The position numbers and the translations under genes were made by a program. DNA of 64,000 bases. Origin: an uncultured Pirellula sp. (GTDB lineage: Bacteria; Planctomycetota; Planctomycetia; Pirellulales; Pirellulaceae). Below the pieces are notes generated by a model. The model saw nothing but the letters and a program-made list of their open reading frames with translations, did not search any database and had not been told where the DNA came from. The stretch is from NCBI GenBank assembly GCA_903892355.1, contig CAITIE010000153.1, positions 1 to 64,000 of the forward strand, written 5' to 3'. Positions 1-45,169 of the stretch are shown here, piece after piece. The stretch's first letter is position 1, and each line of letters starts with the position of its first letter.

Positions 1-3000
1 AATGCGGTTACCGAAAAGCAAAAGGCACGTATTCGCGAAGCGTTTTCGATTTGGGCAGACAACATCGGTGTGCAGTTTGTCGAAACGCCAAACAGCGGTT
101 TGACCATGGCACTGGGCAGCCTCAATGCACTGCCATCGGCCGCTGGTCTTCGCGTCGAAAATGCAGCGAGCGGTTTCTGGGGTGTTCGAATCGACCCAAC
201 CTATCAGAACAGCCTTGCCGTTTTCTCGGCTGACAATCAGTGGGACGACAATTATGGCGAAAACATGACCCGAGCTGCGATGTCCAGCATCGGCTTGATG
301 CTCGGTCTGGCTCGCGCCGGCGATGCGGATCCGTCCACCTTGATGAAGTTCGATAGCAACTTCATCAACTTCACTGCAGGGTCCGATCGCAACTTTGAAC
401 CGGTCTTCCCAGGCAACCTGGATACGATGCGAGCGCAATACCTCCATCGTCCAGAGAGCAGCGATATCGATCTTTACCGATTCGATGTCGATTTCGGTAC
501 CAATGGGGAAAACCGTCAAGGTGCACTCACCATCGAATCGTTCGCAGAACGAGCTAGTTCCAGCAGCCCACTCGATACGCGATTGGCCTTGTTCAAGCAA
601 ACACAAGCTACTGCCGTATCGAATCTCGGAGCCGGTGGCGGCGTCGAAGTGCTTTTCACCGCTGTCAAGCCAGGTAAAGAAGGTAACAACCTCCAAGTCT
701 TCGTGACTCGTAGCAATCGAGGCGTTGGTGCACAGCCAATCATCAACACCTTCCCGAACGCTATCACCATCGATCTCAACTCGTCCATTGGAAGCGAAAC
801 CACGCTCAATGAACTCCTCGTCGCTCTGGACAACGATCCGGCCGCTCGGAGCCTTGTCAAGGTAACCTTGAACAAGGGCGACCGTGCAACGGTGATCGGT
901 GACCGCGATATCACTTACTCACCGATCACTCTCTTCGGTGGCAACGTCGAACTCATCGCTCAGAACGATGATTACTTCAGCAAAGACTCCTTGATCCGGA
1001 TGAATCTCGATTCTGGGATCTATTACATCGGTGTCTCGGCATCTGGCAATGACAAGTACGATGCATCCGTTCCAGGAACCGGAAACGGTGGGCGGACCCA
1101 AGGCCGTTACGACCTTCGTCTCACGTTCCGCGCTCAAACCGACGGAGTCGATTCGATCAGAGACGTATCCAACGGTTCGGGCGATCCAGGTGTATCGCTC
1201 GATGGTGATGGTGATGGAGTCCCTGGTGGTGTTTACAACTTCTGGTTCGAAACCCGTCCTCTCGACCGAGTCCTCCGGTTCAATGCGGACGGCACCGCCC
1301 CAATCGATGGTCGAATCGTAACGGTAACCGGTGGCAATGGCGTTGTTCGCCGGTTCGAGTTCAGCACCGATGCAACGGTAGGGATCGGCAATACGGCTGT
1401 TCGGTACACCACCGCGAGCACCGTTGGTGATCTCGCATTGGCCCTGGCCGCTGCCATCAACTCGCGAACCGAGCTCGGCGTTACCGCCACAGCAAACGGT
1501 GCGAGGATCACCCTCAAGGGAGAACGGCTCGTCCAACTCTCGTCGGGATTGACAGCGATCGACATCTCTGGAAAGACCATTTTCGTCGACAAGTCCGCCG
1601 GTCCAAACGCGGATGGTTCTCTCGCAAAACCGTTTAACAACATCGCAGGTAGTGGCGTCGCTAATGCATTCTCTGCGGCCCTGCCTGGGGATATCGTCCG
1701 CATCGTTGGTAACGGTGGAGCGGACGGAAAGATCGAAACGGCAAAAGACAACTTTGCTTACGAAATCGGCTACGGCGTTCTGGCTGGATCGATCCTTGCC
1801 GATGGAGCAACCATGGACGTACCGAAGGGCGTATCGGTCATGGTCGATGCAGGGGCCGTCTTCAAGATGCGCCGATCGCGCGTTGGCGTCGGTAGCTCAA
1901 CCTTGGGGGTTGACCGCAGCGGTGGTGCATTGCAAGTCCTCGGTACTCCGAAACTGCTTGATCGAAACGGCAATGCCATTCGGGGTAGCAGCGGTCAGTC
2001 CGTGAGCGGTAATGTCTTCTTCACCTCGTGGCTCGATGAAGCGATCGGCTTCGACAACTACCAACCAACCACCGCACCTGCCGCCGGGGATTGGGGTGGA
2101 TTGCTGTTCAAGCGAGACCTCGACAAATCCGCAGGGCGATTCGATCTCGAAGATGAAGGTATCTTCCGCCAATACGTCAATTACGCCGATATCCGATACG
2201 GTGGTTCCAGCGCTGTTGTGATCGATTCCGTCCAACAGAGCGTGAACTCGATTCAAATCACTGAAATGCGTCCGACGTTGACCTTCAACCGGATAAGCAA
2301 TGGTGCGGACTCTGCAATCAGCGCGACCCCAGATAGCTTTGAGGAAACCCTCTTCAGCGATCTGCGTTACCAACGCAAGGGATCCTTCACTCCGGATTAC
2401 GATCGCATCGGTCCTGACATCCACGACAACACCTTGGTGAACAATTCGATCAACGGGTTATTCATCAAAGTCTCGACCCCTGCCGGTGGTGAACTCAAGC
2501 AATTGACCGTTCCTGGTCGATTCAATGACACCGACATCGTTCACATCATTACGGAAAACATCATCGTCCAAGGCAACCCGGGTGGTGCCCAGCTCGATGC
2601 AACCGTCGTTTCGTCGAATTTGATCTCTTTGGCTCCAACCCTCGGAGGAAGTTTCTTACCAGGTAGCTACAGCTACAAGCTGACTTTCGTTGACAGGAAC
2701 GGTTATGAAACACCTCCATCGAATGCGACACAAACCATCGATCTGTTGCCCGGACAAACGGCCATCCGATTGATCGGTTTGCCAGGTACCACGGGCGAGT
2801 ACACCAGTCGACGCCTGTACCGTGCGGATTCCGTCGGTGGATCTTACCGATTGGTGGCCGAACTCGATTCGAGCACGACCAGTTACCAAGACCGTGGCAC
2901 GGTCCTCGCTGATCCGTTGGATCCCAACGCGACACTCCTTCGCGATCGTCCAAACGTTTCTGGGATCACAATCACCCCAACCTCTGGTGGCAGTCTAGCC

Positions 3001-6000
3001 GCGGCAGCTTACACCTACCGAATCGTAATGATCGATTCCATGGGCCGCGAAGGTCTGGCGTCGAATACAACAGCCATTGCAACATCAACGACAACCAATC
3101 GTTCGCTGCGGCTTAACAATCTTCCAACCGTCCAAGCCGGCTACGCCGGTCGCCGGATTTACCGAAGCGCTGCGGGTGGTGCAGGTACCTTCTCGCTGAT
3201 CGCCGAGATCCGTGACCCTGCCATCAATTCGTACTTGGACAATGGCACCAGCACGCTCACTGGAACTCTGAGCGTTGAATCCTCGGGCAACATCCGACCA
3301 CGGCTGGACGCATCCCTCGCGATCGATCCAGGCAGCATTATCAAGATCGAAGGTGCGCGCATCGAGCTCGGTCAAAGCACGCAGTTGCTCGCTGAAGGAA
3401 CCGATGGAAATCGGATCGTGTTCACTAGCAAACAAGACGATCGCTTCGGTGCGGGTGGTACGTTCGATACGAACAACAACGGACTCCGAGGGTCCTTGGA
3501 CGCGAAAGCTCGTGACTGGAGCGGAGTTTACGCTTCCCCAGGAGCCAACATCAGCCTCGACAATACTGTCGTCGCTTACGCTGGTGGTATCTCGCGCCTG
3601 GAAGGTACGTTCAAAGCATTCAGCCCGCTCGAGCTTCAACAAGCCGACGCGCGGGTTGCTAACTCGGTCTTTGAAAACAATGGCAACGGGATGGGTGGCC
3701 AAGGACCCATCGATCGATTGGGCCGACCCGCGAACGAAAATTATCCTTTCGGCAACAACAACAGCCGAGGTGCTACAGTCTTTATCCGCGGTACACAACC
3801 GATCTTCGTCAACAATACGTTCCAAAACAACGTTGGTACGGCATTGACCATCGATGCAAACTCCATGGATGCCGAACTGCGTGGCGATATCGGCCGTCAG
3901 TCGGGTGAAGTGGATCGCATCAAGAATCTCGACGCAAACCGAGGTCCTCTGTTCCGAGGAAATCGTCTCTACAACAACAGCATCAATGGTCTTGAAATCC
4001 GCGGTGATGCTTCGACGAACAACCGAAATGAAGATGTACTTGCAGTTCGAGATCTCCAACGCAATCTCCTGACGACCGAAAGCGTCTGGGACGATACCGA
4101 CATGGTCCACGTCCTCTTCGACTCGATCACCGTTGGAAACCTCCAAAGTGTCGGCGGTCTGCGTTTGCAAAGCTCCGTGAATGAGTCCTTGGTCATCAAG
4201 ATGGAAGGCCAAGGCTCCAATTTCGACCAAGAACGTGGAACCGGCTTCACCGCCACAGGACGCTTTGGTAGTATCAGCGATCGCGTCGGTGGTACCGTCA
4301 CGGTGATGGGCATGCCTGGATTCCCAGTCGTCCTCACCAGTCTTCGCGATGACGCGGTCGGTGCTGGCACCCAGCCAGACGGCCGTCCACAAACCGATAC
4401 GAACAACGATGGCATTGCCAGCGTCCCACGCGCTGGGGATTGGCGAAGCATGCTGTTTGACTCATTCAGCAACGATCGCAATGTTCAAACCGTGTTGGAA
4501 CTCGAACAAGCGGACGTCATCGCACCGGGACTCAACGATTCGGTGCTATCTGCTCAGTTCATGGGAACCTTGGCGGCCAACGCCCAATCGAGCGATGAAA
4601 ACCTTCGCCTCGGATTTATTGTTCAAGGTGTTCTCAGCGAACCCGCCGACCAAGACCTCTTCAGCTTTGTTGCAACCGCTGGAACGGAAGTTTGGGTCGA
4701 TGTCGATTCGACCGAAATCACCCTCGACACCGTCATCGAAATCCTCAATGCCAACGGTGACCTCATCGCACGCAGCGATAACAGCACCGCGGAGCAACTC
4801 AATCCATCCTTGATCTATCGCGATCCTTCCCTCGACGTTGATTCAGTCAACCCGATCGTCCAGAAGAATCGTTCGACAGCCCGTCGCAATGAATCGGGAT
4901 TGATCAAAGAAGACGGCACCTCCAACACGGGTGATGCCGGTCTGCGAATGATCCTTCCGGGTGTTGCCGGCGCGACGAGCACCTACTTCTTCCGCGTTCG
5001 AAGCGCGAGCACGAACATCGAGAACCCAGCTGCGGGTATCACCAGCGGTTCCTACACGGTTCAAGTTCGAATGCGAGACGAACAAGAGTTCGCAGGTTCC
5101 ACTGTGCAATTTGCGGATATTCGGTACGCAACGAATGGCATCCAGGTCAACGGGTTGCCCAACAATTCGCCGCTGACCGGCGAAGCAAACTCCAACATGT
5201 ACGATGGAGTTGTCGAAAGCGGTATAACGCCAACCGTCACCGACCTGGGCCCCTTGCACTTGACCTCAAAGAGTGCGATCAGCGTCGCTGGAACACTGAA
5301 TGCGGGCACCAACCGCTACCGATTCACCGTCGGTGATTTGGCCAGCACATACGTTGGCACCCCGAGCGCGTCGTCGACCTACCCAGTAGTGATCGATGTC
5401 GACTACGCGGATGGACTCAACCGCAAGCGGTTGAATGTCCAAGTCCTCTACGACAATGACAACAACGCAAACACCCCAGGTATTCCTGTGGCAGGAATCA
5501 CCCGAAGTCGTTCCTTGATCGTCGATGACGTCCCAGGGCCACTATCCGGTTCCGATCTCGATGACCTGTCCCGGGGTTCGGTTGGCACCGCGGATCCGTT
5601 CATCAGCTTCATCGGGACCGCTGAACTCCGTCGAGGCACCTATGAAGTCATCGTAACGGACAACGATATCGGATCGACCAAGTCCGGTATCTACCAGATG
5701 GAAATCCGCCAAGGGGACAAGATCGCGGGCACGTTGCCAAACAACTACCGCGGTTCATACAGCACCACGATCGCATTCCAAGCAGGCTTGACCGCCGCCA
5801 ACATGGCAGGAAAAACCGTCACCGTCTCCGATGGATCCAGCCGAGTCTCCTTGGAGTTCACACTCACTGGAAACGTTGCCTTTGGAAATATCCCGGTGGT
5901 GATCGCTGCGGGTGACTCCCCAGCACGATTGGGTGACAAGTTCCGTGACGTGATCAACCAACTTTATCTCCAGAAGCAACTCAATGTACGCGCTTCGGAT

Positions 6001-9000
6001 AGCAATGGCGTTGTCAACGGAAATGGCAACGGCATCATCGACTTGTTCGGCAAAGTCCAAGTCAGCGATCCATCGGGCGCGTTCACTGTCAGCGGCACCT
6101 CGGGCATCCAAAACTTTGATGGTGCGGGCGACCAAAACGTTGTGCGCGACCAAGGACAACTCATCGTCTCGAACAACGTGATCACCAAGGCCCGCGATTG
6201 GGCTGTTTGGTCGGCACCAGCGGACAAGTACTACGCAGATGGACGAGCCCAACAGGCTCGCACCAATGCATTCGACTCCACGAACCCTGTTGCTCCGCCA
6301 ACGCTCGGTGGAGCCTTTGCTCGCAACTTGCCAGTCGCCAACGAAGTTCCATTCGGCGTCGCAGTCGGATCGGTTGCGGAACGGGCTGGGGTAGCCCCAG
6401 GAATGATCGTTGTCAACAACATATTTGACGAAGCTGGACTCGGTGGATTGCATATCCAAGGTGAAGAGCCAACATGGCGGCTCACCGTTCGACCAGGCAT
6501 CTTGGATTCAAGCTTTGATGGTGCTACAGGAAACCATGCCGGTTCTCGATTCCATGATTCGATCCCGAACCGTTTCGAGGTCGGATTCGGCCGGCAACGT
6601 GTTCGATTCGAATTCGAAGACATCGCTGGGGCAGTGACAGGGGGCCCAGACTTCGGTAGCGGCGTCACCGGTGGCAATGGTTGGTCTCCAGACTTTATTC
6701 CGATTTACTATCGCGAAGACGCAGGTGCTGTGTACTTGCGACCCGACCCAACCAATCCTGGGTATGCCGCCGATGAAATGGTCAAGGCGATTCGGGATTC
6801 GTTCTATGGAAGCGTTTTGACCACCAATGGAACGACCCAGCACATCTATACTTGGTTCGAACCACAGAATCCAATCGTCCAAACAGACCCAGCAGACCCA
6901 GCCACCTGGATCTATCCATCCGCAACTTTGATCGTTCGAGGACCTCAATACTTTGATACCCTCGGTACGGGTGTTCCAATCACCTTTTCGCGAGTAGGCG
7001 ACTACACCGCAGCACCGTTTGTCCGCGCCGTGAACAACACGATCGTCGGCAACGATGGACGCGCCGCCTTCAATCCGGTAAGCGTGGATCTCGATAACAA
7101 CGACACATTGGCGGGTGCGGCTGAAACCTACCAAGGTGTCAACATCAACCCACGCCAGTACACGGTGAACGGTACCTTGTCCGCGGATCCACTATCGACC
7201 GGTTCCAGCGATGTCGACATCTACAAATTCCAGTTGGAAATTGGGGAACGAGTACGGGTCAACGTCGATACCGGAGCGGGATCCAGGCTGGATGCAGCCC
7301 TCAAGATCTTCGATGCGAACGGCGTTGCTCAAATCGTCAGCACTTCGCAGGACCCAACGACCTCGGAAAACAGTTCAGCACCGGGCGAATCCGTAGGCTT
7401 GGATCCTTACATCGACTTTACAGCTACCAAGGCAGGTGTCTACTACGCAGCAATTAGCGCCTCTGGAAACAGTAGCTACGATCCGCTTTCCCTCGCCGAT
7501 CGCAAGCGCGGCACCACGAGCGGTGATTACAAACTAATCCTCGAAGTTCTTCGACCGGAGGAATTTGTGATCACGGTGGATGAAGTCAACACCTACGCAG
7601 ATGGCGAAACGTTCACCATCAGCCAAGTCGCTGATTTTATCGGAACCACGAATAACTCGAGAACCTTTGAGTTCACCCGTTCAGGAGCAGTCTCGGCGGG
7701 CAACATCCCGGTTTATATCGGCAATGAATACCGTGTACCCGATCTAGCGCGATCGATTGCTATGGCGATCAATTTGGCCGGAATGAGTAACACTCAAACG
7801 CTAGGCAATGGTCCCTTCGGCGTCGCAAGTCCTCTGGCGCCTGTTTCCGCGATCGCTCTTGGCGGGATCAATGGATTCAACCCATCGACTGGAAACCTGC
7901 CTGCTCCTGATCTTGGTGTGAACTCCGGTAACATCCGTGGTGCAGAACTCGAAGCCGGCCTCAATCGTGTACAGAACTCTACCAATGATTTCAATCCGCC
8001 GGGTCCATTCTCGCCATTCGATGCCGGATCCGGTCCTGGCGGTAATCACATGGGTCGAGGTTTCGGTCACGACCGCACCATGTCGGGAGGATTCGGGACC
8101 GCCCAAGGAAACGGTACCACCGAGAAGTTTGTGGTGATCCGAAACGCATACTCGATCAACTCGAGCGTGACACGACGCATCAATGCACAAGTCGGCAGCA
8201 ACAACGCGAACCAGTTGATCCCAGAAACGGGCATCATGGTCTCCGGTGGTGCAACCCCGACGCTTCTCAACAATGCGTTTATCAACGTACAAAGCCCGAT
8301 CATCCAAGAGGTCGCAGGCGTTCGTCCTGCTGCGGTGATCGTCGGTGGTAACACCTACCAGTACATCGAAGGGGCCAAGCCCGATTCGAACTTGACTTGG
8401 GCTGGAATCGAAGGCGTTCCAACGAACGTGCCGAACACCAACACCGACTTCAACTTTATCGCTGGCAACGCCGAGAAGCTTCTTTCCGACTTCCCTGGAA
8501 ACAAATTCCTCCCAGCCTCAGGATCGCAAATCATCGATAGCTCGATCGATTCGATGCCAGAGCGTGAGAAGTTCCGTGCGACCAAGGCTGCTGTCGGTAT
8601 CGCTCCATCTCCAGTCCTAGCACCAGACCGAGACTACTACGGACTGCTGCGAGCGGATGATCCGAGCGTCGCACCCCCGAGCGGCTTAGGTGGCAACGTC
8701 TTCAAGGACCGTGGCGCAATCGATCGCGCCGACTTTGTTGGCCCATACGCTGTCTCGCTCAAACCGATCGATAACGACGCTCAAAACGTGGATATCGACA
8801 AGACCGAATCGGTCATGCAACTGACGGCTGGCGTTTACCCAGAGTTCCGAATCCAACTCAAGGACGGATTCGAGTCGGCGAACTTGGGTGGCGGCACGGG
8901 AATCAATGACGATTCGGTAACAGGACGCACCGGTGGCAATCGTCTTCCAGGTTCGGTGGTAACCATCACCGAAAACGGACGATTGCTCGTCGAAGGGATG

Positions 9001-12000
9001 GATTATGCGTTCTCCTACAACACCACGACGAACGAGATTGTTCTCAAACCGCTCGCAGGCGTCTGGAAGAATGACCGGGTGTACGATATTGCGATCAACA
9101 ATAAAGATCGTTTCGTCGTCAACGCCCCTGCCGGCGATCAGATCGAAGACGGTGGCATGTTCACGATCCGAGATGCCAACGGTGGAGACGTTACGTTTGA
9201 ATACGACAGCGGATATCGGTTGCAACTGCCGCAAGGCTTGCAATTGAATGTTCCGCTCGCAGGTGGTGGAGCCGGTGGAATTATCGATGGTGACCGCTTC
9301 GCGTTGACCTCGGGATCGAAGACCGTATTCTTCGAGTTCGACAACAATGCCAACATCATCGACACGACCGCAACCGTGATCAAGTTCACTTCGCTTTCGA
9401 CCAAGTCGGAAGTCTCGGACGCGATCATCTCAGCTATCAACGGAGCAATGCTTGCCGGGGTCACCGCTCGGAAAGACTCGGTCGGTAACGTGTTTATCGG
9501 CGCTCCGCTCGGCGCTTATGTGAATACCGCGGCTGCTCCATCGGTCACCCAACCCAAGCAAACCACAGGCTTGCTCGTTCCAGCTCTCGGCACCCGTCCA
9601 GGTGGAATCTCGGATGGCCAAACCTTTAGCCTCTCCGATGGTCGCATCGCTGTTGTCTTCGAATTCGATGCGGATGTCCAACCTCAGGTCCAATCCGGAA
9701 ACATCCGTATCGACATTTCGAACGCAAACACCGACGCTGAAGTCGCCATCGCGATCAAGAACGCGATCGACGGTTCTTTACTGGCCCTCGATTCTTTGGT
9801 CGTCAATAACAACATCGTTTACCTCGGGTTGCCTGAAACGGGCCGAGTCGATGTCGTTAGCTCGAAACTCGATGTTGTCGGTGTCGCCCGAACGATCCTC
9901 GATGGCCAATCGATCACCATCACCCGAACTGTCGGCTCGTCGGTCATCACGAAGACCTTCGAGTTCACCACGGATGCAACCGTGGCAGCCGGTAACATCC
10001 CTATCCCATTCACACTCTCCAGCACTCAGTCGGAGATCGGTGACACCCTCGCTGCTGCAATCAAGAACGCAGGTTTGGGATTGGCTCCTGCCCATGTCGG
10101 CAACGGAAATGTGATCATCGGTGGATCGCCTGAATACTCCGTCTCGGTAGCCAATGCTCCGACGGTTGGCGTGTTCGGTCAACCTGGTGTCCAAGGGAAC
10201 ACTACCCTCCAAATCTTCGGCACTCTCCAATTGCTGGTTCCATCTCGCGGTGGAGCCGATTTGAAGGACGACACCACGTTCACGATCACCAGTGGTTCGA
10301 TCACTGCAACCTTCGAATTCGATGGCAATTTCAGTGGATCGACCGTACCAGGTAGCAGCACCATTCGCTTCACGCCTGCGTCGACCCAAAGCGACATCGT
10401 GACGTTGATTGTGCAAGCGATCAATGCAACCACCGCTCTGGGCATCACGGCACGCGATGCCGGACTGGGTCGAATCGATCTTGGTCTCCTCGAAAATTCG
10501 GCGGTCAATGTTCGCGATAGCAAACTGACCACCGACCGCGGCAATGTCCAAGATGGCGATTATTTCACCATCAGCAACGGCACCACGGCCGTTACGTTCG
10601 AGTTCGAGAACCTGAGTCTCGGCAATGGCTATAGCCCGAGCCGAACTCCGATTCGGTTCACCAACGGTGATTCTCGCCAACGTGTCTACGAGGCAATGCA
10701 AGCCACGATTAAGTCATCGGCGTTGAAACTCGACACCGATATCACTGCGGATGGATTGCGTCTCCGCGACAATGCTAGTTTCTTGATCAACGCCGACAAT
10801 GCTCCATCGCTCCGCAAGCTCGGGGTACCTGGTGGAGCGATTGCAGTGCCATTCGTTCAAGACGCCTCGTTCACCTCGGAACAAGTTCGCGACTCGATCA
10901 TCCGAGCGATCAACGCTGCATCGACTGCTGGCAAGACTCCGCTGGTCGCAAAGGTGCGTGGTGGTTCGACCCTGTTCGTTGAAAATGCGATTAGCATCAG
11001 TCCAGACGTTAGCAGTTTCTACCTGCGTGGCGTCCAAGACAACGCTGGCAATTTCTTGAAGAGCAATCGCATCACCAATGAAACGCAGTTCACGATCATT
11101 ATGCCAGGTGTTGAACTGGATTTCGGTGATGCACCAGATCCATTCAGTACGACGCTGGGTCGTTATCCAACTCTCAAGGCAAACGATGGAGCTCGCCATG
11201 TGATGACCGACAACGGTCCACGATTGGGCGCCGTCATCACTGCTGAACGGGATGGTCAACCACAACCGCTCGGCGACGGTGATATCGGAGATGACGGTGT
11301 TTCATTCCAATTCCAAACGAATGTCTACACGCTCAATTCCTCGCCGCTGTTCAACAAGAATGTCGACACCTCCATCACCGTCTCGATGACGGCCCCAGGC
11401 GTACTCAATGCATGGGTTGACTTCAATGCGGACGGTGACTGGGAGGATCCAGGTGAAAACATTCTCACCGATGCAGTGTTCAACGCTGTCACTTTGCAAC
11501 AAACCTTCAATGTTCGCATCCCTGCAACATCGCCAACCCCAACCACGGCTACGCCAGCCTTTGCACGATTCCGAGCATCCACGCTCGGAACGAAGCTACC
11601 GACCGGTTTGGCACTGGACGGGGAAGTCGAAGACTACCGCGTTATCATCGCTCCGGGCACTCCTCCAACCGGAGTCAATGATGCCTACTCGATGAACGAA
11701 GATCAACTGGGTGGACTGTCGACAACCGATGCCTTGGGTCAAGTCACACCAGGCTTTGGAGTGGATGATGGGGTTTTGGCCAACGATATCAACCCGGACA
11801 ACAAGCCGCTAACTGCTTCGTTGATCACCCCGCCCAAGCACGCTCAGTCGTTCACGTTCCGCCCTGATGGGACCTTCGACTACGCTCCTGTGGCGGACTT
11901 CTTCGGAACCGATACGTTTGTGTACAAAGTGAACGACGGGGTGCTGGATTCGCTCAACTATGCCACTGCGGTCATCACTGTTCGACCTGTGAATGATGCA

Positions 12001-14139
12001 CCGGTTGCGGGAGATTTGAACTACACCATCCTCGAAGATCAGATCCTCGAAGTGGCTGAGTCCGCAGTCATTGCAGTCTCGTCCCCGGGACCAGCCAATG
12101 AATCGGATCAGACGATCAAGATCCAGTCGGTCGATGCACTGTCCAACAAGGGTGGTAGCGTTCGATTCATCGGTGGAAAGATCACGTATCAGCCACTGCC
12201 GAATTTCAGCGGCAGCGACTACTTCACCTACACCATCGTCGACAACGGAGTGACCGGAGTCCTCGCGGATCCATTGACCGCGGTTGGCACCATCTTCTTG
12301 ACCGTCAAGGACAAGAACGATGCACCGATCACCACGCCGAAGACACTCAACACGGTCGAAGATACGCCAGCGAGCATCTCGATCGCCGATTTGATCTTCG
12401 GTGACGTGGCAGGTCCAGCCGATGAGCAAGGCTCCCAAACCCTCAACTTCACAGGTGTGAACTCACCGAGTGCTAAGGGTGGAACCGTAATCGTCGTCGG
12501 TGACCGTGTTGTCTACACGCCGCCGAAGAACTACAACGGTATCGACACTTTCACCTACATCGTGACCGACGATGGCTTGAGCGATGGACGACCCGACCCA
12601 CAGTCGGCTTTTGGAACCGTCACAGTCAACATCGAAGCTCGCAACGATGCCCCTGAGGTTGTCAAACCGTTCGGTACCGTATCGATGAAGGAAGACGCCG
12701 ATGAGATCGCGTTGCCTCTGTCGGATTACTTCACCGATCCAGACATCATCCTCAATGGCGATGTTTTGACCTACACGGTCATCAGCAACACGAATACAGG
12801 CCTGATCGAACCCACGTTCGGTAACGGCAACGTGTACTTGAAGCCCAAGGCTGATCAGAACGGCGAAGCCACCATCGTGATCGAAGCGATGGACAAGGCA
12901 GGTCTGAAGGTTACCAACACCATGAAGGTTGTGGTAACACCGGTCGACGATGATCCTCGGTTGGTGACTCCGCTGCCAGACCTATCGGTCGCAGAGGATT
13001 CTCCCCCTCTGAACATCGTCTTAACCCCGACCTACTTCTTCGATCCAGACGTGATCAACGGAGACAAGCTTTCGTTCGAGGCGACCAGCAGCAACACGGA
13101 CATCGCCGAAGTTCGAATCTCGGGCGACAGCCTCCTGATCACCTTGGTGCCAAACGCAAACGGTCAAACGACGATTTTCGTGAAAGCGACCGATTTGACA
13201 GGTCGATCGGTATCCGATTCCTTCGTCTTGACGGTGACCCCCGTCAACGACGGCCCGGTCACGGTACCCGACAGCTACACCACTCCTCAGGGGGTAACGT
13301 TGATCACCACGGACGCCCGTGGAACGCTGACGGTTACCACGACCGACGACGGGGTACTGGCAAATGACAGGGATCCCGAAGGGGATTCGTTCACCGCCAC
13401 GGTCACGGTCCAGCCAACCCGAGGCTCGGTGACGATGAATGCCGATGGAACCTTTACCTACATTCCTGGTTCGACCGCAATTGCTGGAACCACGGATACG
13501 TTCAAATACGTGGCCAAGGACAGCCAGGGTGCTGCAAGCGTCGCGACGACGGTTACAATTACCATCGGTCGCCCGCCACAGCCGAAGTATCAGAACCCAA
13601 CCCGCAAGCAAGACGTCAACGCAGACGGCTTCATATCCCCAATCGACGTCCTGATCGTGGTCAATCTGCTCAACAGCCGTGGCCCATCGGTACCCGTCGA
13701 AGGTCTCCCTGGACCACCGGATTATGTGGACGTCAACGGTGACAACGTCGTCAATCCACTCGACGCTCTCGAGGTGATCAACTACATCAACTCGCAGAGT
13801 GGTGGATCCTCGGGCGGAGAGGGAGAAGGAGAAGGATTCTCGAGCGTCCAGCAAGTGGTCGCACCTTGGTCCCAGGGATGGAATGTTGACATCGGTCGCG
13901 GTGTGGAAAACACCACCGTCGCGATGTCTGCAGCCCAGACTCTGAAGCCGATGGTCACACGGTCCTCGTCGAACTCGACCGGTTCGATGGCACCGAGTCC
14001 TTCGGCCCCTTGGAATCTGGCCAGCTTGAATATCGAGGAGGATGAACTCGATACGCTCGCCGACGATCTGTCGCGCTACGGCGCGAGAGACAACGACTCA
14101 CTAGTCGACCAGGCTCTATCCGACCTGTTTGGCGAATAG
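1..14139 (+). CDS. Giant dockerin-tailed multidomain surface protein with degenerate metzincin domain (5' partial)
   Basis: The frame is open from base 1, so the gene starts upstream; 4,712 residues are visible. Domains in order: a metzincin-like domain (to about base 360) whose zinc motif is replaced by SSIGLMLGLAR while a later Met is kept; a PPC-like domain (about 420-1130); an F-E-F module (1297-1545); a DUF1565-like start of a beta-helix (about 1561); two Fn3-like stretches (2605-3260); a second helix (to about 4480); PPC-like domains (4540-5730, 7130-7560); more helix ending like a choice-of-anchor-Q region (to about 8750); an array of F-E-F modules (9136-11000); a GEVED domain (11107-11650); six cadherin-like modules (11660-13560); two dockerin calcium loops (DVNADG, DVNGDN; 13612-13800); a Gly/Glu linker and an acidic tail. 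Dockerins normally bind cohesins, but none is encoded here. An extracellular or cell-surface structural or adhesive role is inferred. It is a tandem paralogue of the next gene. Confidence 0.9.
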   Translation, partial: NAVTEKQKARIREAFSIWADNIGVQFVETPNSGLTMALGSLNALPSAAGLRVENAASGFWGVRIDPTYQNSLAVFSADNQWDDNYGENMTRAAMSSIGLMLGLARAGDADPSTLMKFDSNFINFTAGSDRNFEPVFPGNLDTMRAQYLHRPESSDIDLYRFDVDFGTNGENRQGALTIESFAERASSSSPLDTRLALFKQTQATAVSNLGAGGGVEVLFTAVKPGKEGNNLQVFVTRSNRGVGAQPIINTFPNAITIDLNSSIGSETTLNELLVALDNDPAARSLVKVTLNKGDRATVIGDRDITYSPITLFGGNVELIAQNDDYFSKDSLIRMNLDSGIYYIGVSASGNDKYDASVPGTGNGGRTQGRYDLRLTFRAQTDGVDSIRDVSNGSGDPGVSLDGDGDGVPGGVYNFWFETRPLDRVLRFNADGTAPIDGRIVTVTGGNGVVRRFEFSTDATVGIGNTAVRYTTASTVGDLALALAAAINSRTELGVTATANGARITLKGERLVQLSSGLTAIDISGKTIFVDKSAGPNADGSLAKPFNNIAGSGVANAFSAALPGDIVRIVGNGGADGKIETAKDNFAYEIGYGVLAGSILADGATMDVPKGVSVMVDAGAVFKMRRSRVGVGSSTLGVDRSGGALQVLGTPKLLDRNGNAIRGSSGQSVSGNVFFTSWLDEAIGFDNYQPTTAPAAGDWGGLLFKRDLDKSAGRFDLEDEGIFRQYVNYADIRYGGSSAVVIDSVQQSVNSIQITEMRPTLTFNRISNGADSAISATPDSFEETLFSDLRYQRKGSFTPDYDRIGPDIHDNTLVNNSINGLFIKVSTPAGGELKQLTVPGRFNDTDIVHIITENIIVQGNPGGAQLDATVVSSNLISLAPTLGGSFLPGSYSYKLTFVDRNGYETPPSNATQTIDLLPGQTAIRLIGLPGTTGEYTSRRLYRADSVGGSYRLVAELDSSTTSYQDRGTVLADPLDPNATLLRDRPNVSGITITPTSGGSLAAAAYTYRIVMIDSMGREGLASNTTAIATSTTTNRSLRLNNLPTVQAGYAGRRIYRSAAGGAGTFSLIAEIRDPAINSYLDNGTSTLTGTLSVESSGNIRPRLDASLAIDPGSIIKIEGARIELGQSTQLLAEGTDGNRIVFTSKQDDRFGAGGTFDTNNNGLRGSLDAKARDWSGVYASPGANISLDNTVVAYAGGISRLEGTFKAFSPLELQQADARVANSVFENNGNGMGGQGPIDRLGRPANENYPFGNNNSRGATVFIRGTQPIFVNNTFQNNVGTALTIDANSMDAELRGDIGRQSGEVDRIKNLDANRGPLFRGNRLYNNSINGLEIRGDASTNNRNEDVLAVRDLQRNLLTTESVWDDTDMVHVLFDSITVGNLQSVGGLRLQSSVNESLVIKMEGQGSNFDQERGTGFTATGRFGSISDRVGGTVTVMGMPGFPVVLTSLRDDAVGAGTQPDGRPQTDTNNDGIASVPRAGDWRSMLFDSFSNDRNVQTVLELEQADVIAPGLNDSVLSAQFMGTLAANAQSSDENLRLGFIVQGVLSEPADQDLFSFVATAGTEVWVDVDSTEITLDTVIEILNANGDLIARSDNSTAEQLNPSLIYRDPSLDVDSVNPIVQKNRSTARRNESGLIKEDGTSNTGDAGLRMILPGVAGATSTYFFRVRSASTNIENPAAGITSGSYTVQVRMRDEQEFAGSTVQFADIRYATNGIQVNGLPNNSPLTGEANSNMYDGVVESGITPTVTDLGPLHLTSKSAISVAGTLNAGTNRYRFTVGDLASTYVGTPSASSTYPVVIDVDYADGLNRKRLNVQVLYDNDNNANTPGIPVAGITRSRSLIVDDVPGPLSGSDLDDLSRGSVGTADPFISFIGTAELRRGTYEVIVTDNDIGSTKSGIYQMEIRQGDKIAGTLPNNYRGSYSTTIAFQAGLTAANMAGKTVTVSDGSSRVSLEFTLTGNVAFGNIPVVIAAGDSPARLGDKFRDVINQLYLQKQLNVRASDSNGVVNGNGNGIIDLFGKVQVSDPSGAFTVSGTSGIQNFDGAGDQNVVRDQGQLIVSNNVITKARDWAVWSAPADKYYADGRAQQARTNAFDSTNPVAPPTLGGAFARNLPVANEVPFGVAVGSVAERAGVAPGMIVVNNIFDEAGLGGLHIQGEEPTWRLTVRPGILDSSFDGATGNHAGSRFHDSIPNRFEVGFGRQRVRFEFEDIAGAVTGGPDFGSGVTGGNGWSPDFIPIYYREDAGAVYLRPDPTNPGYAADEMVKAIRDSFYGSVLTTNGTTQHIYTWFEPQNPIVQTDPADPATWIYPSATLIVRGPQYFDTLGTGVPITFSRVGDYTAAPFVRAVNNTIVGNDGRAAFNPVSVDLDNNDTLAGAAETYQGVNINPRQYTVNGTLSADPLSTGSSDVDIYKFQLEIGERVRVNVDTGAGSRLDAALKIFDANGVAQIVSTSQDPTTSENSSAPGESVGLDPYIDFTATKAGVYYAAISASGNSSYDPLSLADRKRGTTSGDYKLILEVLRPEEFVITVDEVNTYADGETFTISQVADFIGTTNNSRTFEFTRSGAVSAGNIPVYIGNEYRVPDLARSIAMAINLAGMSNTQTLGNGPFGVASPLAPVSAIALGGINGFNPSTGNLPAPDLGVNSGNIRGAELEAGLNRVQNSTNDFNPPGPFSPFDAGSGPGGNHMGRGFGHDRTMSGGFGTAQGNGTTEKFVVIRNAYSINSSVTRRINAQVGSNNANQLIPETGIMVSGGATPTLLNNAFINVQSPIIQEVAGVRPAAVIVGGNTYQYIEGAKPDSNLTWAGIEGVPTNVPNTNTDFNFIAGNAEKLLSDFPGNKFLPASGSQIIDSSIDSMPEREKFRATKAAVGIAPSPVLAPDRDYYGLLRADDPSVAPPSGLGGNVFKDRGAIDRADFVGPYAVSLKPIDNDAQNVDIDKTESVMQLTAGVYPEFRIQLKDGFESANLGGGTGINDDSVTGRTGGNRLPGSVVTITENGRLLVEGMDYAFSYNTTTNEIVLKPLAGVWKNDRVYDIAINNKDRFVVNAPAGDQIEDGGMFTIRDANGGDVTFEYDSGYRLQLPQGLQLNVPLAGGGAGGIIDGDRFALTSGSKTVFFEFDNNANIIDTTATVIKFTSLSTKSEVSDAIISAINGAMLAGVTARKDSVGNVFIGAPLGAYVNTAAAPSVTQPKQTTGLLVPALGTRPGGISDGQTFSLSDGRIAVVFEFDADVQPQVQSGNIRIDISNANTDAEVAIAIKNAIDGSLLALDSLVVNNNIVYLGLPETGRVDVVSSKLDVVGVARTILDGQSITITRTVGSSVITKTFEFTTDATVAAGNIPIPFTLSSTQSEIGDTLAAAIKNAGLGLAPAHVGNGNVIIGGSPEYSVSVANAPTVGVFGQPGVQGNTTLQIFGTLQLLVPSRGGADLKDDTTFTITSGSITATFEFDGNFSGSTVPGSSTIRFTPASTQSDIVTLIVQAINATTALGITARDAGLGRIDLGLLENSAVNVRDSKLTTDRGNVQDGDYFTISNGTTAVTFEFENLSLGNGYSPSRTPIRFTNGDSRQRVYEAMQATIKSSALKLDTDITADGLRLRDNASFLINADNAPSLRKLGVPGGAIAVPFVQDASFTSEQVRDSIIRAINAASTAGKTPLVAKVRGGSTLFVENAISISPDVSSFYLRGVQDNAGNFLKSNRITNETQFTIIMPGVELDFGDAPDPFSTTLGRYPTLKANDGARHVMTDNGPRLGAVITAERDGQPQPLGDGDIGDDGVSFQFQTNVYTLNSSPLFNKNVDTSITVSMTAPGVLNAWVDFNADGDWEDPGENILTDAVFNAVTLQQTFNVRIPATSPTPTTATPAFARFRASTLGTKLPTGLALDGEVEDYRVIIAPGTPPTGVNDAYSMNEDQLGGLSTTDALGQVTPGFGVDDGVLANDINPDNKPLTASLITPPKHAQSFTFRPDGTFDYAPVADFFGTDTFVYKVNDGVLDSLNYATAVITVRPVNDAPVAGDLNYTILEDQILEVAESAVIAVSSPGPANESDQTIKIQSVDALSNKGGSVRFIGGKITYQPLPNFSGSDYFTYTIVDNGVTGVLADPLTAVGTIFLTVKDKNDAPITTPKTLNTVEDTPASISIADLIFGDVAGPADEQGSQTLNFTGVNSPSAKGGTVIVVGDRVVYTPPKNYNGIDTFTYIVTDDGLSDGRPDPQSAFGTVTVNIEARNDAPEVVKPFGTVSMKEDADEIALPLSDYFTDPDIILNGDVLTYTVISNTNTGLIEPTFGNGNVYLKPKADQNGEATIVIEAMDKAGLKVTNTMKVVVTPVDDDPRLVTPLPDLSVAEDSPPLNIVLTPTYFFDPDVINGDKLSFEATSSNTDIAEVRISGDSLLITLVPNANGQTTIFVKATDLTGRSVSDSFVLTVTPVNDGPVTVPDSYTTPQGVTLITTDARGTLTVTTTDDGVLANDRDPEGDSFTATVTVQPTRGSVTMNADGTFTYIPGSTAIAGTTDTFKYVAKDSQGAASVATTVTITIGRPPQPKYQNPTRKQDVNADGFISPIDVLIVVNLLNSRGPSVPVEGLPGPPDYVDVNGDNVVNPLDALEVINYINSQSGGSSGGEGEGEGFSSVQQVVAPWSQGWNVDIGRGVENTTVAMSAAQTLKPMVTRSSSNSTGSMAPSPSAPWNLASLNIEEDELDTLADDLSRYGARDNDSLVDQALSDLFGE
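9136..11000 (+). repeat. Array of F-E-F modules nested inside a split host module
   Basis: Five complete modules of about 75-80 residues start near 9280, 9607, 9895, 10258 and 10546. Each has the pattern D-G-x2-F-x-I...F-E-F-D, a loop, a strand, S/N-T-x-S/A-E, a helix with A-I-x-x-A-I-N/K, then G-(I/V)-T/A-A and a final strand. They are flanked by an N-terminal half module (about 9136-9264, ending after FEYDSGY) and a C-terminal half module (about 10837-11000, with RDSIIRAIN). Together the two halves make one host module interrupted by the array. The C-terminal half resembles the flagellin hook IN motif; that relation is inferred. Confidence 0.7.
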
Positions 14140-14160: not shown

Positions 14161-14184
14161 GCGGGGTATCGATCGATGCCCCGC
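14161..14184 (+). terminator. Hairpin at the end of the first giant gene
   Basis: GCGGGGTATC (14161-14170) pairs with GATGCCCCGC (14175-14184) over 10 bp with one G-T wobble and a 4-base loop. A pyrimidine-rich stretch (ATTCCTTTTCC) follows. It lies 21 bases after the stop of the first giant gene. The ATG at 14176 sits in its right arm, which argues against that codon as the start of the next gene. Confidence 0.55.
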
Positions 14185-14235
14185 GATATTCCTTTTCCAT
14201 TATCAACCACCGTACGGTTCCAAGGTTTGTTCAAC

Positions 14236-17200
14236 ATGGGAATTGACGCATCCAGATCGGCTCATCGAAATCGCTCCAACAAGATGGAGCGGCGCAACGG
14301 CTTTCGCAACATGCTTTGCGAAAACCTAGAACGCCGCGAGGTTATGGCCGGGGATATCCTCGACCTCGATTTCCGATTGCTGTCCGTCGCACCGAATTCA
14401 GGCGAGATTCTCTCGACCACTCGGGCGAACGAACTGACGGAGTCGCCGCGTGAATTGGTGTTCCGATTCGTCGGCGGAGAGGACATCCAAGCATCGACGC
14501 TCAAGAACGGGATTCGGATCACCCGCGCGGGTGGCGATGGGGTCTTCGGTGCCGGTGGAGTAGCCACTGACATAGTGGTTGGTCCTGACTATCTAGATTT
14601 CGCGGACAGTTCCAACAAACGCGTTGTGGTGGCTCGGTTCTCACAACCGCTGACCGACGACATGTACCGTGTCGAAGTATTCGGTACCGATACACCCGCA
14701 GCCGTTCGCACCATCGATGGCGATCCGCTGAAGCCACGCAAGACTGGCACTACCAAAGACACCTACGATTTCAATCTGGAACTCGGCACGAAAATCGTCG
14801 CGGTTGTTCCACAGCCGATCGTTCGTCAAACCAACGGTTCGCTCCAACAGAACCGCGACCAAATCGAGATCTACTTCAATGATTCAGAACTCTATGATCG
14901 CAACATCAACACCGGGGATTTAAGTCCCAACCCATCCGTGGTTGATCCCCAGTACTACAAGTTGATGCTTACTCAGGAATCCGTTAGCCCCAACGATGAT
15001 GTGGTCTTCAGCCCGATCTCGGTCAGCTACAACCCTACCGCCAAACGCGCGGTCCTTACGTTTGCGGGTCCCATTGATCAACTCCCCGGAGTAGGCAACT
15101 CCGGTACGTTCCGGTTGCGCGTTGGCTCCAATGAAGCGGTTGCATCGGCATTGACTCCGATCAGCCCCCTTGCCCCGATCGTCGCTGCTGATCCGGCAGG
15201 ATTTTTGAGCGGCGCCTTCCAACTGAACGCCGGGAACCCGTTGACCGGTTCGTTCTCAGCCGTGGTCAGCGAAGAGATTCGCAACGCGACCACTTCTCTA
15301 CCCAACGATTTCCCAGGATCCAATTTCGAACCCGGGCACCGCGATATCCAGGATGAATCGCACCTCGGTGGACCCGATGCCGACCCAGAAATTACTCAGT
15401 TGCAGTACTCCTTCATGGACGGAGTTCCCTACGGAACGGACGCTGCCGGTCGGCCTGTTTACTCCTCCATCACCCCAGACCAAAAGCAGAGAGTGCGTGA
15501 GATTTTCGAGTTTTACTCCCAGAAACTTGGCTTGGATGCTGTGGAGTTCATGGGCGACGCAAGCAGCAATCCGGATATCTACAAGGTTGTCGTTGGCGAT
15601 CTATACCCCAACGCGGGGCCAACGGGCCCGGTTAGCGGCCCTGGTGATGTGATCGGTCTTGCAGGTGGCGACCTGGCCATTATGGACGGTGCCGAAGCGT
15701 GGGATAACACCTTTGGCAATGGATCGAATTTGCCAGGTACGGTTAATTTCTTCTCGACCGCAATGCACGAAATCGGCCACCTCCTCGGCTATTCGCACAC
15801 CTATGATCTGCCTGAGGGGACCATCATGGGCTCTGATGGTCGACTGAGCATCGGAACGCCTCCAACCGAACAAGTATTCCCGGGCGTTAACGACGTCATT
15901 CACGGCCAGCACATGTACCGTCCCGACAATCGGGATGTTGACTTGTACCGTTTCGTCGTCGCGGCGGGAGCAACTGGCTCCCTGCGCGCAGAAACCATTG
16001 CAGAAAGACTCAACGATTCCAGCAATGCCGATACGCACCTCACCCTGCTCCGGCTCGAATCAGACGGCACACTGACCACAGTGGCCTCCAACGATAATTA
16101 TTTCAGCGACGACGCGTTTGTTTCCGCAGAACTTCAACCTGGCGAGTACTTCCTGTCAGTGACCGGCTCTGGCAACCAAGACAACAATCCGTTGACTGGT
16201 GACACCGGTAGCGGTGCAACCAGCCAAGGCCGATACGATCTTCGCATCGATTTCAAGAGTACCACGGCTAGCAGTATCGTCGAGCAAAAGACCGGCTCCA
16301 ATTCGAAAGGCAGCGCACTCGATGGTGACGGCGATGGCATCGCTGGCGGCAATTTCGACTTCTGGTTCCGCGCCGCTTCCCCAGTCGGTACCGCAGGGGT
16401 ACCGGCGGGAAGCCCTCGGACCATCGTCGTTGACAAGGCATTTACCGGAGTCACTCGGGATGGTTCGCTCGCGAGACCGTTCAACCGTATCAACGAAGCG
16501 ACCATGGTTGCGGCTCCTGGAGATATCATCCGACTCGTCGGTGACACGCGTACCTCCTCCTTGACCGACGATGCCGCTTACGAAATCGGCTTTGGCGGTG
16601 CGTCGGTCGGAACACTTCGTGACGGCGCATCTCTCGATGTCCCTCGCGGTGTTACTTTGATGGTCGATGCGGGTGCCATTCTCAAATTCGGCGGAAGCAG
16701 AGTTCTCGTTGGTAGCGTGGATAGCACGACCAATCGAAGCGGAGCCGCCATTCAAGTTCTCGGTACGCCAACGACCCCCGTTTACTTCACGAGCTACTTC
16801 GATCAGTCCCTCGGAAACGATACCAATCCTCTGATCACGAGCCCGCAAAAGGGAGATTGGGGCGGGATCGAAATCCGAAATGACATCGATCGTACCCAAG
16901 GCCGAACTAGCATCTTGATGGCCGGTGGAAAATTCCTGGCGGCCGATAAAGAACGCGAGGGAATATTCCTCAATACCATCTCCAACGCAGACATCCGCTG
17001 GGGTGGTGGTGTTGTCGGTACAGGCGCGCAGTCGAAGGTGGTTAGCCCGATCGACATGGCCGAAGCTCGCCCCCTGATCATTGGGAATAAGATCTCTAAC
17101 AGTGCCGACTCCGCCATGAGCGTCGACCCAAATGGGCTCGAGGAAACGTTATTCACCGAACCCCGTTACCAAAGTGGTGGTGCGTTTATTCCCGATTACG

Positions 17201-20200
17201 GTCGTGTTGGACCGAAAATCTACTCAAACTCGGTTACCAACAACTCGATCAACGGGCTCTTCGTTCGCGCGGAGACGTTGGCCGGTCAACCGCTCAAGGA
17301 ACTCACGGTTCCAGGGCGAATTGATGATTCCGAAATCACCATTGTTTTCGGTGAAAACGTCATCGTTCAAGGTACACCAGGTGGCGCTACGAGCGAAGTC
17401 GCCGCGCCGAACACCTCCCTTTTGACCTTGGCAAATGTAGCTCCAACTTCAGGCACGGGATTCACCGCATCTGTTGCTCTCAATTACATTGTTACCTTTG
17501 TAGATCGCTTTGGCCAAGAAAGCCTGCCGAGCAGTTCGAAATCCGTAGTGGTCAACGCGGGCTCGGCGATCCGTCTCAATAACATTCCTGCAGCCACAGG
17601 CGATTACGTTTCACGCCGCATTTGGCGTCAAGTCAATGCAGCCGGCGCTTTTCAATTAGCAGGAGTGCTCAATCGCGACGACGTATCGTTTGTCGATAAT
17701 AACATTACGCTCAATGGAATCATGCAAACGGTGATCGGACAAGCGTCCGTCAACCGCGCACGACGCGATGCCAGCTTGGTTGTCGATCCTGGTATCGTTG
17801 CGAAGATGCTCGGAGGCCGAATTGAGGTTGGGATCGGAGCAACTCTGCTCGCCGAAGGCACCGAGTCCAAACCGGTTGTTTTCACGTCCCGTCGAGACGA
17901 CCGTTACGGTGCTGGTGGTACATTCGACACCAACAACGATGGTAGCGCCACCCTCCCCGCAAAGGGAGATTGGTCCGGTATTGTAAGCCGTCACCTGGGA
18001 ACCTTGAGCATCGATTCCGCGATCATCAATTTCGGTGGTGGTGAGTCCCGAATCCCAGGCGGTTTCGCGTCGTTCAATGCTGTCGAAGTCCATCAATCGA
18101 CTGCCCGTATCGCGAATACGGTTTTCGATTCCAATGCGTCCGGTGCAACCAACATGGGCGCTACCAATCGGGATACCCGAGGCGTCAATGAAGGGGCGGT
18201 GGTTTTTGTTTTAGGAAGCCAACCGGTAATCATCAACAACGTCTTCAAGAACAACAACTCCGCGGATACCGCTGCGATCAGCGTCGATGCGAACTCCCTC
18301 AACCCAACCTTCGTTCGTGACTGGGGGCGATCGATCGGGGAGAACCAACGAGAAAACGTCGGTATCGGAAACTTCGGGCCTTTGGTGAGCAACAACCAAC
18401 TCGGCGGAAACTCTCTCAACGGGATGCGTGTTCGCGGTGCCGTTGTGATGACCGAGTCGGTTTGGGATGACACCGACATCGTCCACTTGCTCCGCAGCAA
18501 TCTGGTGCTGCCCGATTACCACACCTACGGTGGACTTCGTTTGGTAAGCAAGGCTGACGAGAGCCTAGTTGTCAAGGCCAGCAATGGCGCGTCGATCACC
18601 GCCGAAGGCCGCCCGCTCGACATCAAGGATCGCATCGGCGGAACCGTACAAGTCATCGGTCAACCTGGATTCCCAGTGGTTATCACCAGCCTCGCCGACG
18701 ATTCGATCGGTGCCGGCTTTGACTACCTCGGAAACTCACTGCTCGACACCAACAACAACGGCCCCTCAAGCGGTGTGGCCGGAGATTGGAAGGGAATCAC
18801 ATTCACCCCATTCAGCAACGATCGAAATGTTGACTTCCGATACGAACGTGAACCAGATCAAATCAGCGAAGGTTCGAACGATTTCCCATCCGATGCAGAG
18901 GATTTAGGCTCACTCGCCAGCAACCTAAACGGCGGCGATGAAAACCTCCGCTTAGGCGTGACCTTGACCGGTTCGATCGCCTCGCCACGCGATCTAGACG
19001 TTTACCGGTTCTCGGCGAATGCGGGAACGACCGTTTGGATCGACGTCGATCAAACCTCGGGTTCGTTGGATTCCATCGTCGAGCTGGTCGATGGTAACGG
19101 GCAGATCATCGCCTTGAGCGACAACTCGATCGCTGAGTCGGTTGCGAAAACAACCTTCTCCGATCCTTCCTTCATTCCCGATGGACGGGTCTTGCCCATG
19201 GATCAATCCGCTTGGGCAAAGACCAACGCCAACGAACCAGGCGCACAGGTTGACTTCCTAGGCGTGAATCCTCTCGATGCTGGCTTCCGCGTAGTACTGC
19301 CCGGAGTTGCCGGCAGCTTTAACAATTACTTCCTCCGCGTTCGCAGCAGCAACGTGTCTCAGGAACCGGGCAAGAACGATCCGGCACGATTGACATCCCC
19401 AGCATTGGTCCGCGAAGGGATCACGACCGGTGGTTACAAAGTCCAAGTTCGAATGCAACAGCAACAAGAAGTCGCTGGGTCAGCGGTTCGATTTGCGGAC
19501 ATTCGCTATGCGCAAATCGGCATTGACGTTCAAGGTGGACCGATGCACTCGCCGCTCTTGGGCGAAGTGGGTGAACTCGATCCAAACGAAACCAATGCTT
19601 CGGATCAGAGCGCAATTAACCTTGGCAATATCATCACCAACGATCGCGCGGGAACGTCGATCGCGGCAAACTTGGCATCTCGAGGCGACATCGACTGGTA
19701 CAATTTCTCGGTCTCTCGCGAAGCGATCCAACAAGTTAGCACAACGCCTAGCAACCATATCGCTTTGACCTTCGATATCGATTACGCCGACGGCCAAGGC
19801 CGTCCGAACACTCAGCTTTGGGTATTCCGACGCGATGCGACCAGCGGCCAACTGACCCTCGTGGCAACGGCCAACGAATCGAACATTCAGGACGATCAAG
19901 CTCGGGTGAATATGGGTGCGGACCTCACGGATCTGACCCGTGGCTCGCAAGGCAAACGCGATGCTTACCTCGGCCCCATCGAACTGCCTCAAGGGGATTA
20001 CACGGTAGCAGTAACCAATGCATCCCTGAAGAATGTGAACATGGATCAGTTCACCACCGCCGATGGGTTTTCGGGGTCCAACACGGTTCGTTTTGAACCA
20101 CTCGATTCGGTCCGAGTCATCTCCGAAGATCGTTTCGATCCGGATTCTCCAACTCGGCCATCGCGCAATCAGGATCCCGTTCAGGTTTCCTTTGCTTTGG

Positions 20201-45106: not shown

Positions 45107-45169
45107 TCGCTTCGGCGATGGAGATTGTCGCTTCGGCGATGGAGATTGTCGCTTCGGCGATGGAGATTG
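45107..45169 (+). repeat. 21-bp tandem repeat (3 exact copies) at the start of the GspF-like gene
   Basis: Three identical units at 45107-45127, 45128-45148 and 45149-45169, core CTTCGGCGATGGAGATTG. Each contains an ATG followed by GAG, so each offers both a start codon in frame with the downstream gene and a GGAG that can act as a Shine-Dalgarno sequence. Confidence 0.9.

Follow-up and report, generated by a model that had tools for sequence, protein, structure and literature searches.

A protein module interrupted by copies of itself in two giant proteins of an uncultured Pirellula

The question raised by this locus is why a long array of similar modules in a giant bacterial protein opens with the first half of a module and closes with the second half of one: whether degenerate repeats cap an ordinary array, or a single module has been split by copies of itself. 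The window, the whole analysed stretch of 64,000 nucleotides from an uncultured Pirellula sp. (Pirellulaceae; contig CAITIE010000153.1 of assembly GCA_903892355.1), carries two giant genes in succession:

1-14139, + strand: protein A, frame 1, 4712 codons, truncated by the contig start (N-terminus missing)
14176-32511: protein B, 6111 codons, the next giant gene after A

Cadherin-like, tandem-95 repeat, GEVED, PPC, and dockerin domains were detected in protein A by Pfam and NCBIfam, and PPC together with weak matrixin signals by Pfam in aa 1-3000 of protein B. The repeated module, herein designated the F-E-F/IN module, was not clearly covered by any Pfam or NCBIfam model. In the same genome, on contig C52, a third giant gene (locus L247; 5174-codon frame) also holds a split module, or host, with two complete modules, or guests, inside it. 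Most relatives with names are Pirellulaceae; MAGs carrying the label uncultured Pirellula or Planctomycetota stand closest. Giant genes of Stieleria varia (Pirellulaceae), some with consecutive locus tags, encode cadherin-like, tandem-95, and matrixin proteins of very great length, for which a role as adhesins or hydrolases has been proposed (PMC7717043); the passages of that paper on these genes mention neither the module nor nesting.

Apart from the nested modules, perfect short tandem repeats were noted at 54209-54312 (15 bases x 6.9), 45107-45169 (21 bases x 3.0), and 62211-62265 (15 bases x 3.7). At 643-942 protein A has an extra segment (VEVLFTAVKPGKEGNN ... DITYSPITLFGG) within a PPC-like stretch, absent from protein B and resembling by eye another inserted strand-helix-strand domain.

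Split hosts in the two giant proteins

The module of about 85 residues is composed of two strands ending in F-E-F-D, followed by a strand, the AIN helix, and two or three strands. A strict profile was started from 12 seeds, iterated, and rebuilt from 316 complete modules, so that the halves were not in its training set. At 3 bits or more this profile gave 1383 matches in 390,688 real residues and seven in 1,172,064 shuffled residues (each protein shuffled three times, in blocks of 30 residues), and chance as the origin of the module matches was ruled out by these shuffles. The window holds 16 modules (nine in A, seven in B) when stand-alone modules, guests, and three hosts are counted together, as an initial annotation made from the sequence had estimated. 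Stand-alone, unsplit modules were located as follows:

1306-1551, + strand: protein A, 46 bits by the strict profile
5809-6105, + strand: protein A, 32 bits
7597-7812, + strand: protein A, 37 bits, the match ending at model position 68
22894-23121, + strand: protein B, 53 bits, the match ending at model position 67
25396-25671, + strand: protein B, 42 bits
25732-26007, + strand: protein B, 28 bits

The module at 1306-1551 sits between FWFETRPLDR and KTIFVDKSAG, and similar flanks without a module were seen by eye in protein B; it may thus represent an insertion difference between the paralogues A and B.

The nested array of protein A was resolved into the following parts. Boundaries of the outer immunoglobulin (Ig)-like domain are approximate and come from by-eye comparison with the module-less relatives L155, L238, and L244; host profiles hN and hC, which include the flanks, were built from 73 filled sites with one, three, or five guests.

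8836-9114, + strand: outer Ig-like (Big_5-type) domain, N-terminal part
9145-9213, + strand: host N-half (aa 3049-3071), strict profile model 3-24, 9 bits
9286-9564, + strand: guest 1 (aa 3096-3188), 67 bits
9610-9870, + strand: guest 2 (aa 3204-3290), 72 bits
9901-10173, + strand: guest 3 (aa 3301-3391), 87 bits
10264-10533, + strand: guest 4 (aa 3422-3511), 72 bits
10549-10812, + strand: guest 5 (aa 3517-3604), 63 bits
10825-10986, + strand: host C-half (aa 3609-3662), strict profile model 27-74, 9 bits; hC 130 bits
11017-11109, + strand: outer Ig-like domain, C-terminal part (D-N-AGN ... QFTI), which directly follows the N-terminal part in module-less relatives

The host N-half consists of two strands, ends in F-E-Y-D-S-G, and matched hN over its full length (112 bits); the C-half consists of a strand, the AIN helix, and two strands. 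The initial annotation, which had located this array correctly to within about 15 bases, described an N-half at its start, an orphan C-half at its end, and five complete modules between them. This description was confirmed, the two halves covering complementary parts of the model. Each guest is about the size of the host, the whole array is several times larger, and the gap between hN and hC is 536 residues.

In protein B two sites were recognized:

24454-24528, + strand: site 1, host N-half, strict profile model 2-25, 7 bits; hN 76 bits
24556-24825, + strand: site 1, single guest, 74 bits
24838-25038, + strand: site 1, host C-half, strict profile model 26-88, 12 bits; hC 100 bits
21874-21936, + strand: site 2, host N-half, by eye, with no separate strict-profile match
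21964-22173, + strand: site 2, guest, 17 bits, the match starting in the host N-half
22249-22410, + strand: site 2, host C-half, strict profile model 26-73, 3 bits only

Site 1, with an hN-hC gap of 104 residues, is the matching site of the second giant protein and holds a split host with one guest, as had been proposed. The third proposed host-guest-host arrangement, site 2 of B, was upheld more weakly, given its by-eye N-half and its C-half of 3 bits. The block is conserved: it was matched in 39 of 100 family genomes at E ≤ 1e-10 (the window's own included), and 22 of the 44 matches listed, counted by eye, start at residue 1-2 and reach residue 278 or beyond of its 290. The flanks of this site (21790-22659) resemble another beta-sandwich domain (LRFEFSTVGDF ... 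GIYLDDFIIGF), and outer domains of more than one kind may therefore accept the module.

The position of the split was examined in a list of 100 nested configurations. In 60 of them the N-half stops near model 24, and in 82 the C-half begins near model 24-30 (both binned); junctions in this list are rough and noisy, and it was used for the pattern only.

The five-guest segment of A was modelled by AlphaFold2 together with 46 relatives (47 sequences), giving a mean pLDDT of 89.5 and a pTM of 0.71. In the model the host N-half forms strands at residues 20-25 and 30-36, and the C-half forms strands at 581-584, 616-621, and 624-628 with a helix at 593-609. The two halves (20-36 and 581-628) thus have their strands and helix in the order found in a complete guest, the block means being 84-95. 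For the structural check suggested in the initial annotation, that the halves at the array ends should pack together, the prediction supplied two confident halves in the order of one module; the packing itself we infer from model confidence and from the empty hosts described below, and the halves probably form one domain also in the filled state. Couplings learned on 659 complete modules were also read in 130 hosts, where the top 15 N-C pairs stood only a little above the null (mean percentile 0.62, null 0.50, p = 0.04); over all N-C pairs, no correlation of couplings between complete modules and hosts was detected (Spearman 0.04, p = 0.18).

Empty hosts and the range of guest numbers in relatives

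The A-site query found matches in 71 of 100 family genomes and the B-site query in 99 of 149 genomes. Sixty regions from the A-site search, 20 from the B-site search, and 75 loci were compared. Both host profiles were run on all regions, giving 135 distinct sites, of which 129 were kept as clean; the six dropped were L068, L071, and L111 (partial hN match; gaps of 67, 273, and 173 residues, off the ladder), L155 (no module), and L183 and L185 (hN truncated where the locus ends; gap of 562 residues). The hN-hC gap of the clean sites fell into the following classes, shown with the number of sites at which the count of complete modules agrees with the gap:

no guest: 1-5 residues, 7 sites, agreement in 7
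one guest: 101-109 residues, 11 sites, agreement in 10
two guests: 215-223 residues, 5 sites, agreement in 5
three guests: 311-348 residues, 29 sites, agreement in 29
four guests: 430-481 residues, 4 sites, agreement in 3
five guests: 523-619 residues, 61 sites, agreement in 58
largest class: 733-1035 residues, 12 sites, with six complete modules in 5 and four or five in the others, some of which have nests of their own

The arrays of relatives therefore differ by whole modules of about 107 residues. The class sizes are not natural frequencies, since sites were fetched for their resemblance to the A and B sites; some genomes stand under two locus numbers, only identical sequences having been removed. 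Odd guest numbers (one, 11 sites; three, 29; five, 61) exceed even ones (two, 5 sites; four, 4) in this set, in which sampling and kinship are uncontrolled. Short and long linkers between guests also seem to alternate, as if guests were paired.

The seven sites without guests (L188, L189, L170, and L180, all four from the window's genus, and L190, L191, and L194) are of the protein B type. In each of them hN and hC lie 1-5 residues apart, and one unsplit module stands between the flanks known from protein B. It had been stated at the outset that the nested reading would fail if each half proved to be a complete, independent domain; in the empty hosts, however, the two halves run on without a break as a single module. 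Repeat proteins often end in degenerate units, and a plain tandem array joined end to end, its degenerate caps not belonging together, would agree with the low scores of the halves taken alone (7-12 bits in the window). Against such caps, the host profiles with their flanks reach 76-130 bits in the window, most splits lie at a single position of the model, and the supposed caps are joined as one module in seven relatives. This explanation was rejected as contradicted by the empty hosts, and we regard it as very improbable.

We thus prefer the reading that a domain is nested in its own loop, in arrays that vary by whole modules, and put its probability at about 0.85. The loop after F-E-F-D, first suspected as a permissive insertion point from the window, is occupied in comparable sites by none, one, two, three, four, and five or more guests. 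That length varies by a route other than end-to-end fusion, as had also been supposed, agrees with the complementary halves and with their fusion in relatives. Because the loop of the module takes further copies, the protein can gain length in the middle of a domain and not end to end.

Outer shell, further levels, and history

The host is itself enclosed. At L155, L238, and L244 there is no module and the flanks join directly, and L155, the one locus tested, scores 24.8 bits with PF13205 Big_5 (cut-off 23.6); the split outer domain in the window was undetected by Pfam. When L155 served as query, the match to filled sites was broken in two near residue 86 (for example 12-86 and 85-143 at G048:C40), and 57 of about 127 matches listed run from residue 34 or less to 138 or more over a length that leaves no room for a module (counted by eye from the match coordinates). 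The module-less relatives, the Big_5 score of L155, and the two-piece matches altogether indicate, at the level of sequence, that the shells lie, from the outside in, as Ig-like domain, host, guests, and sub-guest. More widely, 11 of 199 genomes across the phylum (the window's own included) matched a nine-row profile at E ≤ 1e-6, one of them, from the same taxonomic order, with a 6789-codon frame; a search for nested hosts outside the family established none.

A second point of self-insertion was found near model 40, before the helix (split at about model 37-42). In L133 such a nest is made up of an N-part of 34 bits (model 3-39), a guest of 81 bits, and a C-part of 26 bits (model 37-90), and a second such nest adjoins it. 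Two adjacent nests of this kind are present also in L130 and in L071, and one in L061. A third level was observed in L078 (= L134), L079, L138, L141, and L143, from five Rhodopirellula-type genomes, where guest 1 is split at about model 38-45 and carries an insert, which matched the module profile at hhalign E 1.3e-5 with a probability of 81% (without permuted control). Guest 1 is unsplit in L140, L148, L118, and L122. The enclosure of the host in an Ig-like domain, the use of the second loop, and the sub-guest of guest 1 go beyond the initial annotation. In L035 and L036 a module of the array carries, by eye, about 270 residues rich in D-x-D-x-D-G, with a calcium-binding look and not a self guest. 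AlphaFold2 models of the type-2 nest (four sequences; best pLDDT 86.6, pTM 0.77) disagree with each other, their mean pLDDT being 86.6, 80.0, 79.8, 76.8, and 42.8.

Recent copying or a mobile element was also considered as the origin of the arrays. The B site gave no plasmid match, the type-2 nest gave only two phage records at E 10, and the other eight modules of A3 have 23-35% identity to guest 2. This origin was rejected on the absence of signs, which is not proof.

The history of the guests was traced on a tree of the 129 host sites, on which the guest-number classes need 21 changes against 62 with shuffled labels, that is, the classes cluster. A clade of protein B-type sites (support 100/99), lying among filled sites, contains seven empty, two one-guest, and two two-guest sites; the protein B site and its sister are nested among the empty ones. 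Under a history of loss only, the long array would be ancestral and the loop a permissive site of deletion, not of insertion. Such a history would accord with the empty state of seven of the eleven sites in this clade. Retention and loss are likewise favoured by a strand, S-G-Y/F-x-I/L-x-V-P, common by eye to the protein B site and other filled sites, and by the protein B guest, which groups with those of other B-type sites at modest support in a tree from few columns and 24 chosen sites. The fewest changes for the empty class are nevertheless three (one loss and two refills), as against four with losses. Module-less Ig-like sites are widespread among the L155 matches. The sub-guest, present in five related genomes and absent from the unsplit guest 1 of the four relatives checked, is together with the host tree read more simply as a gain. 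Loss alone is therefore improbable, and both gains and losses of guests most likely occurred; to the insertion envisaged at first, loss should likely be added. When guests of seven five-guest sites were compared, those of position 5 formed one group (SH-aLRT 89), positions 2 and 4 needed two changes each, and positions 1 and 3 three each. Since guests of equal position mostly group across these sites, the five-guest arrays look old.

As a mechanism, we propose that in Pirellulaceae giant proteins a Big_5-like Ig domain received one copy of the module in one of its loops, and that the loop of this host after F-E-F-D then took up further complete copies in tandem. The second loop, before the helix, is used in some relatives, and a guest can itself turn host. 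Change of length by whole modules would most simply be brought about by in-frame recombination between module copies. Both ends of an array being held by one host, arrays would form closed loops rather than rods. Since giant genes of the family were proposed as adhesins or extracellular hydrolases (PMC7717043, in the passages on these genes), the arrays might tentatively be seen as side branches, differing in size, of a surface or matrix protein with an adhesive role.

The insertion of one domain in another is usually treated as an event that happened once and was then frozen. The living relatives described here give a series that runs from an Ig-like domain without module through an empty host to hosts filled by one to six guests. 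Since this series stands at a nearly fixed host position, the folding of a split domain, the choice of insertion site, and the change of repeats within a loop can be tested with natural homologues. A module without a clear Pfam or NCBIfam model stands at the centre of very large, little understood planctomycete proteins.

Comparison with flagellar, phage, and RNA polymerase domains

The initial annotation had compared the C-half with the flagellin hook IN motif (Flagellin_IN, PF07196), which has a strand-strand-helix-strand order similar to that of the module. A borderline match was obtained for one piece of B site 2 (21964-22200, 79 residues; 22.8 bits, cut-off 22.7), falling to 19.5 bits on a 187-residue piece; the genome search gave 22.5 bits (22.9 with neighbours). 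The PF07196 match starts at the F-E-F strand and leaves the first strand of the module outside. No match was detected on the 621-residue main array, on the whole of protein A, or on aa 1-3000 of B, so that in the window only the site 2 piece exceeded the cut-off, by a narrow margin. Among nine single modules one matched (E 0.022; limit E 10, with filters dropping most weak matches), and nine other frames of more than 4000 codons in the family matched at E 4e-4 to 0.06.

That the module is simply a flagellin outer domain (Flagellin_IN or FliD head) placed in another protein, and thus a member of a known nested family, was weighed on this and further evidence. Apart from the borderline score, an hhalign comparison of the module profile with 15 Flagellin_IN sequences from planctomycetes aligned 31 columns at E 3.4e-4, at a probability of only 38%; the reversed control gave 0.12 and the best of 60 permuted ones 0.019; the reciprocal search of flagellar loci reached a best E of 0.035, and the sub-guest profile gave no match with Flagellin_IN (E 0.33). 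FliD came first in both PDB fold searches, H. pylori FliD at E 1.2e-3 for the five-guest model, with flagellins further down, and E. coli FliD at E 1.3e-2 for the type-2 nest. These searches gave nothing at E ≤ 0.001, the first matches having rmsd of 20.6 and 16.1 and the FliD matches TM-scores of at most 0.32, and PDB sequence searches gave nothing convincing. Predicted phage structures fit the type-2 nest far better than any solved structure: nine viral fold matches were found at E ≤ 0.001, including a baseplate J-like protein at E 1.7e-11, and tail sheath proteins also match; by sequence, PHROGs gave nothing below 0.078. The families of the flagellin N and C termini (helical D0/D1) were absent from the Pfam matches of protein A and of aa 1-3000 of B (3001-6111 partly scanned). 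The flagellin outer domain is thus an unlikely, though not negligible, full account of the module, and the predicted fold weakly resembles flagellin and FliD heads.

Returning to the self-nested module, a broader picture, somewhat more doubtful than that of variable side branches, may be sketched. The module would belong to a family of domains that prefer their own loops, recursive at two loops with up to four shells (Ig-like, host, guest, and sub-guest), by which giant surface proteins might grow closed, side-branching rings of flagellin-head-like modules. Copy number would be tuned by lineage, and the odd guest numbers could reflect pairing around a shared hub of linker strands.

Among the titles and abstract beginnings searched in the open-access literature, no description of such nesting in planctomycetes was found. 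The initial annotation knew of no named family with this behaviour, and here a correction is needed, because a domain nested in a domain is already shown by the outer domains of flagellin and FliD. In FliD, a loop of D2 carries D3 as an insertion, an arrangement described as representative of all FliD proteins (PMC8533109, in the passages on these domains), and the module is alike in that an outer domain is nested in the loop of another. FliD is flagellar, with one guest and a helical leg, whereas the module has up to six complete guests by profile count and belongs to giant proteins that also contain Ig-like, GEVED, and dockerin domains. In Campylobacter FlaA flagellin, D2 is a structural homologue of D3, and the passages of PMC8306008 on these domains mention neither a ladder of copy numbers nor tandem guests in one loop. 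In rpoC2 of cyanobacterial RNA polymerase, hybrid motifs are inserted recursively to six levels; the likeness lies in domains of the same type nested in several levels, and the difference in that rpoC2 is one enzyme, its fold is another one as judged by name only, and no ladder of tandem guests is given in the passages concerned (PMC13114784). Domain-in-domain nesting is thus already known from flagellin and FliD and from rpoC2, and the arrays of the window are a variant of such nesting.
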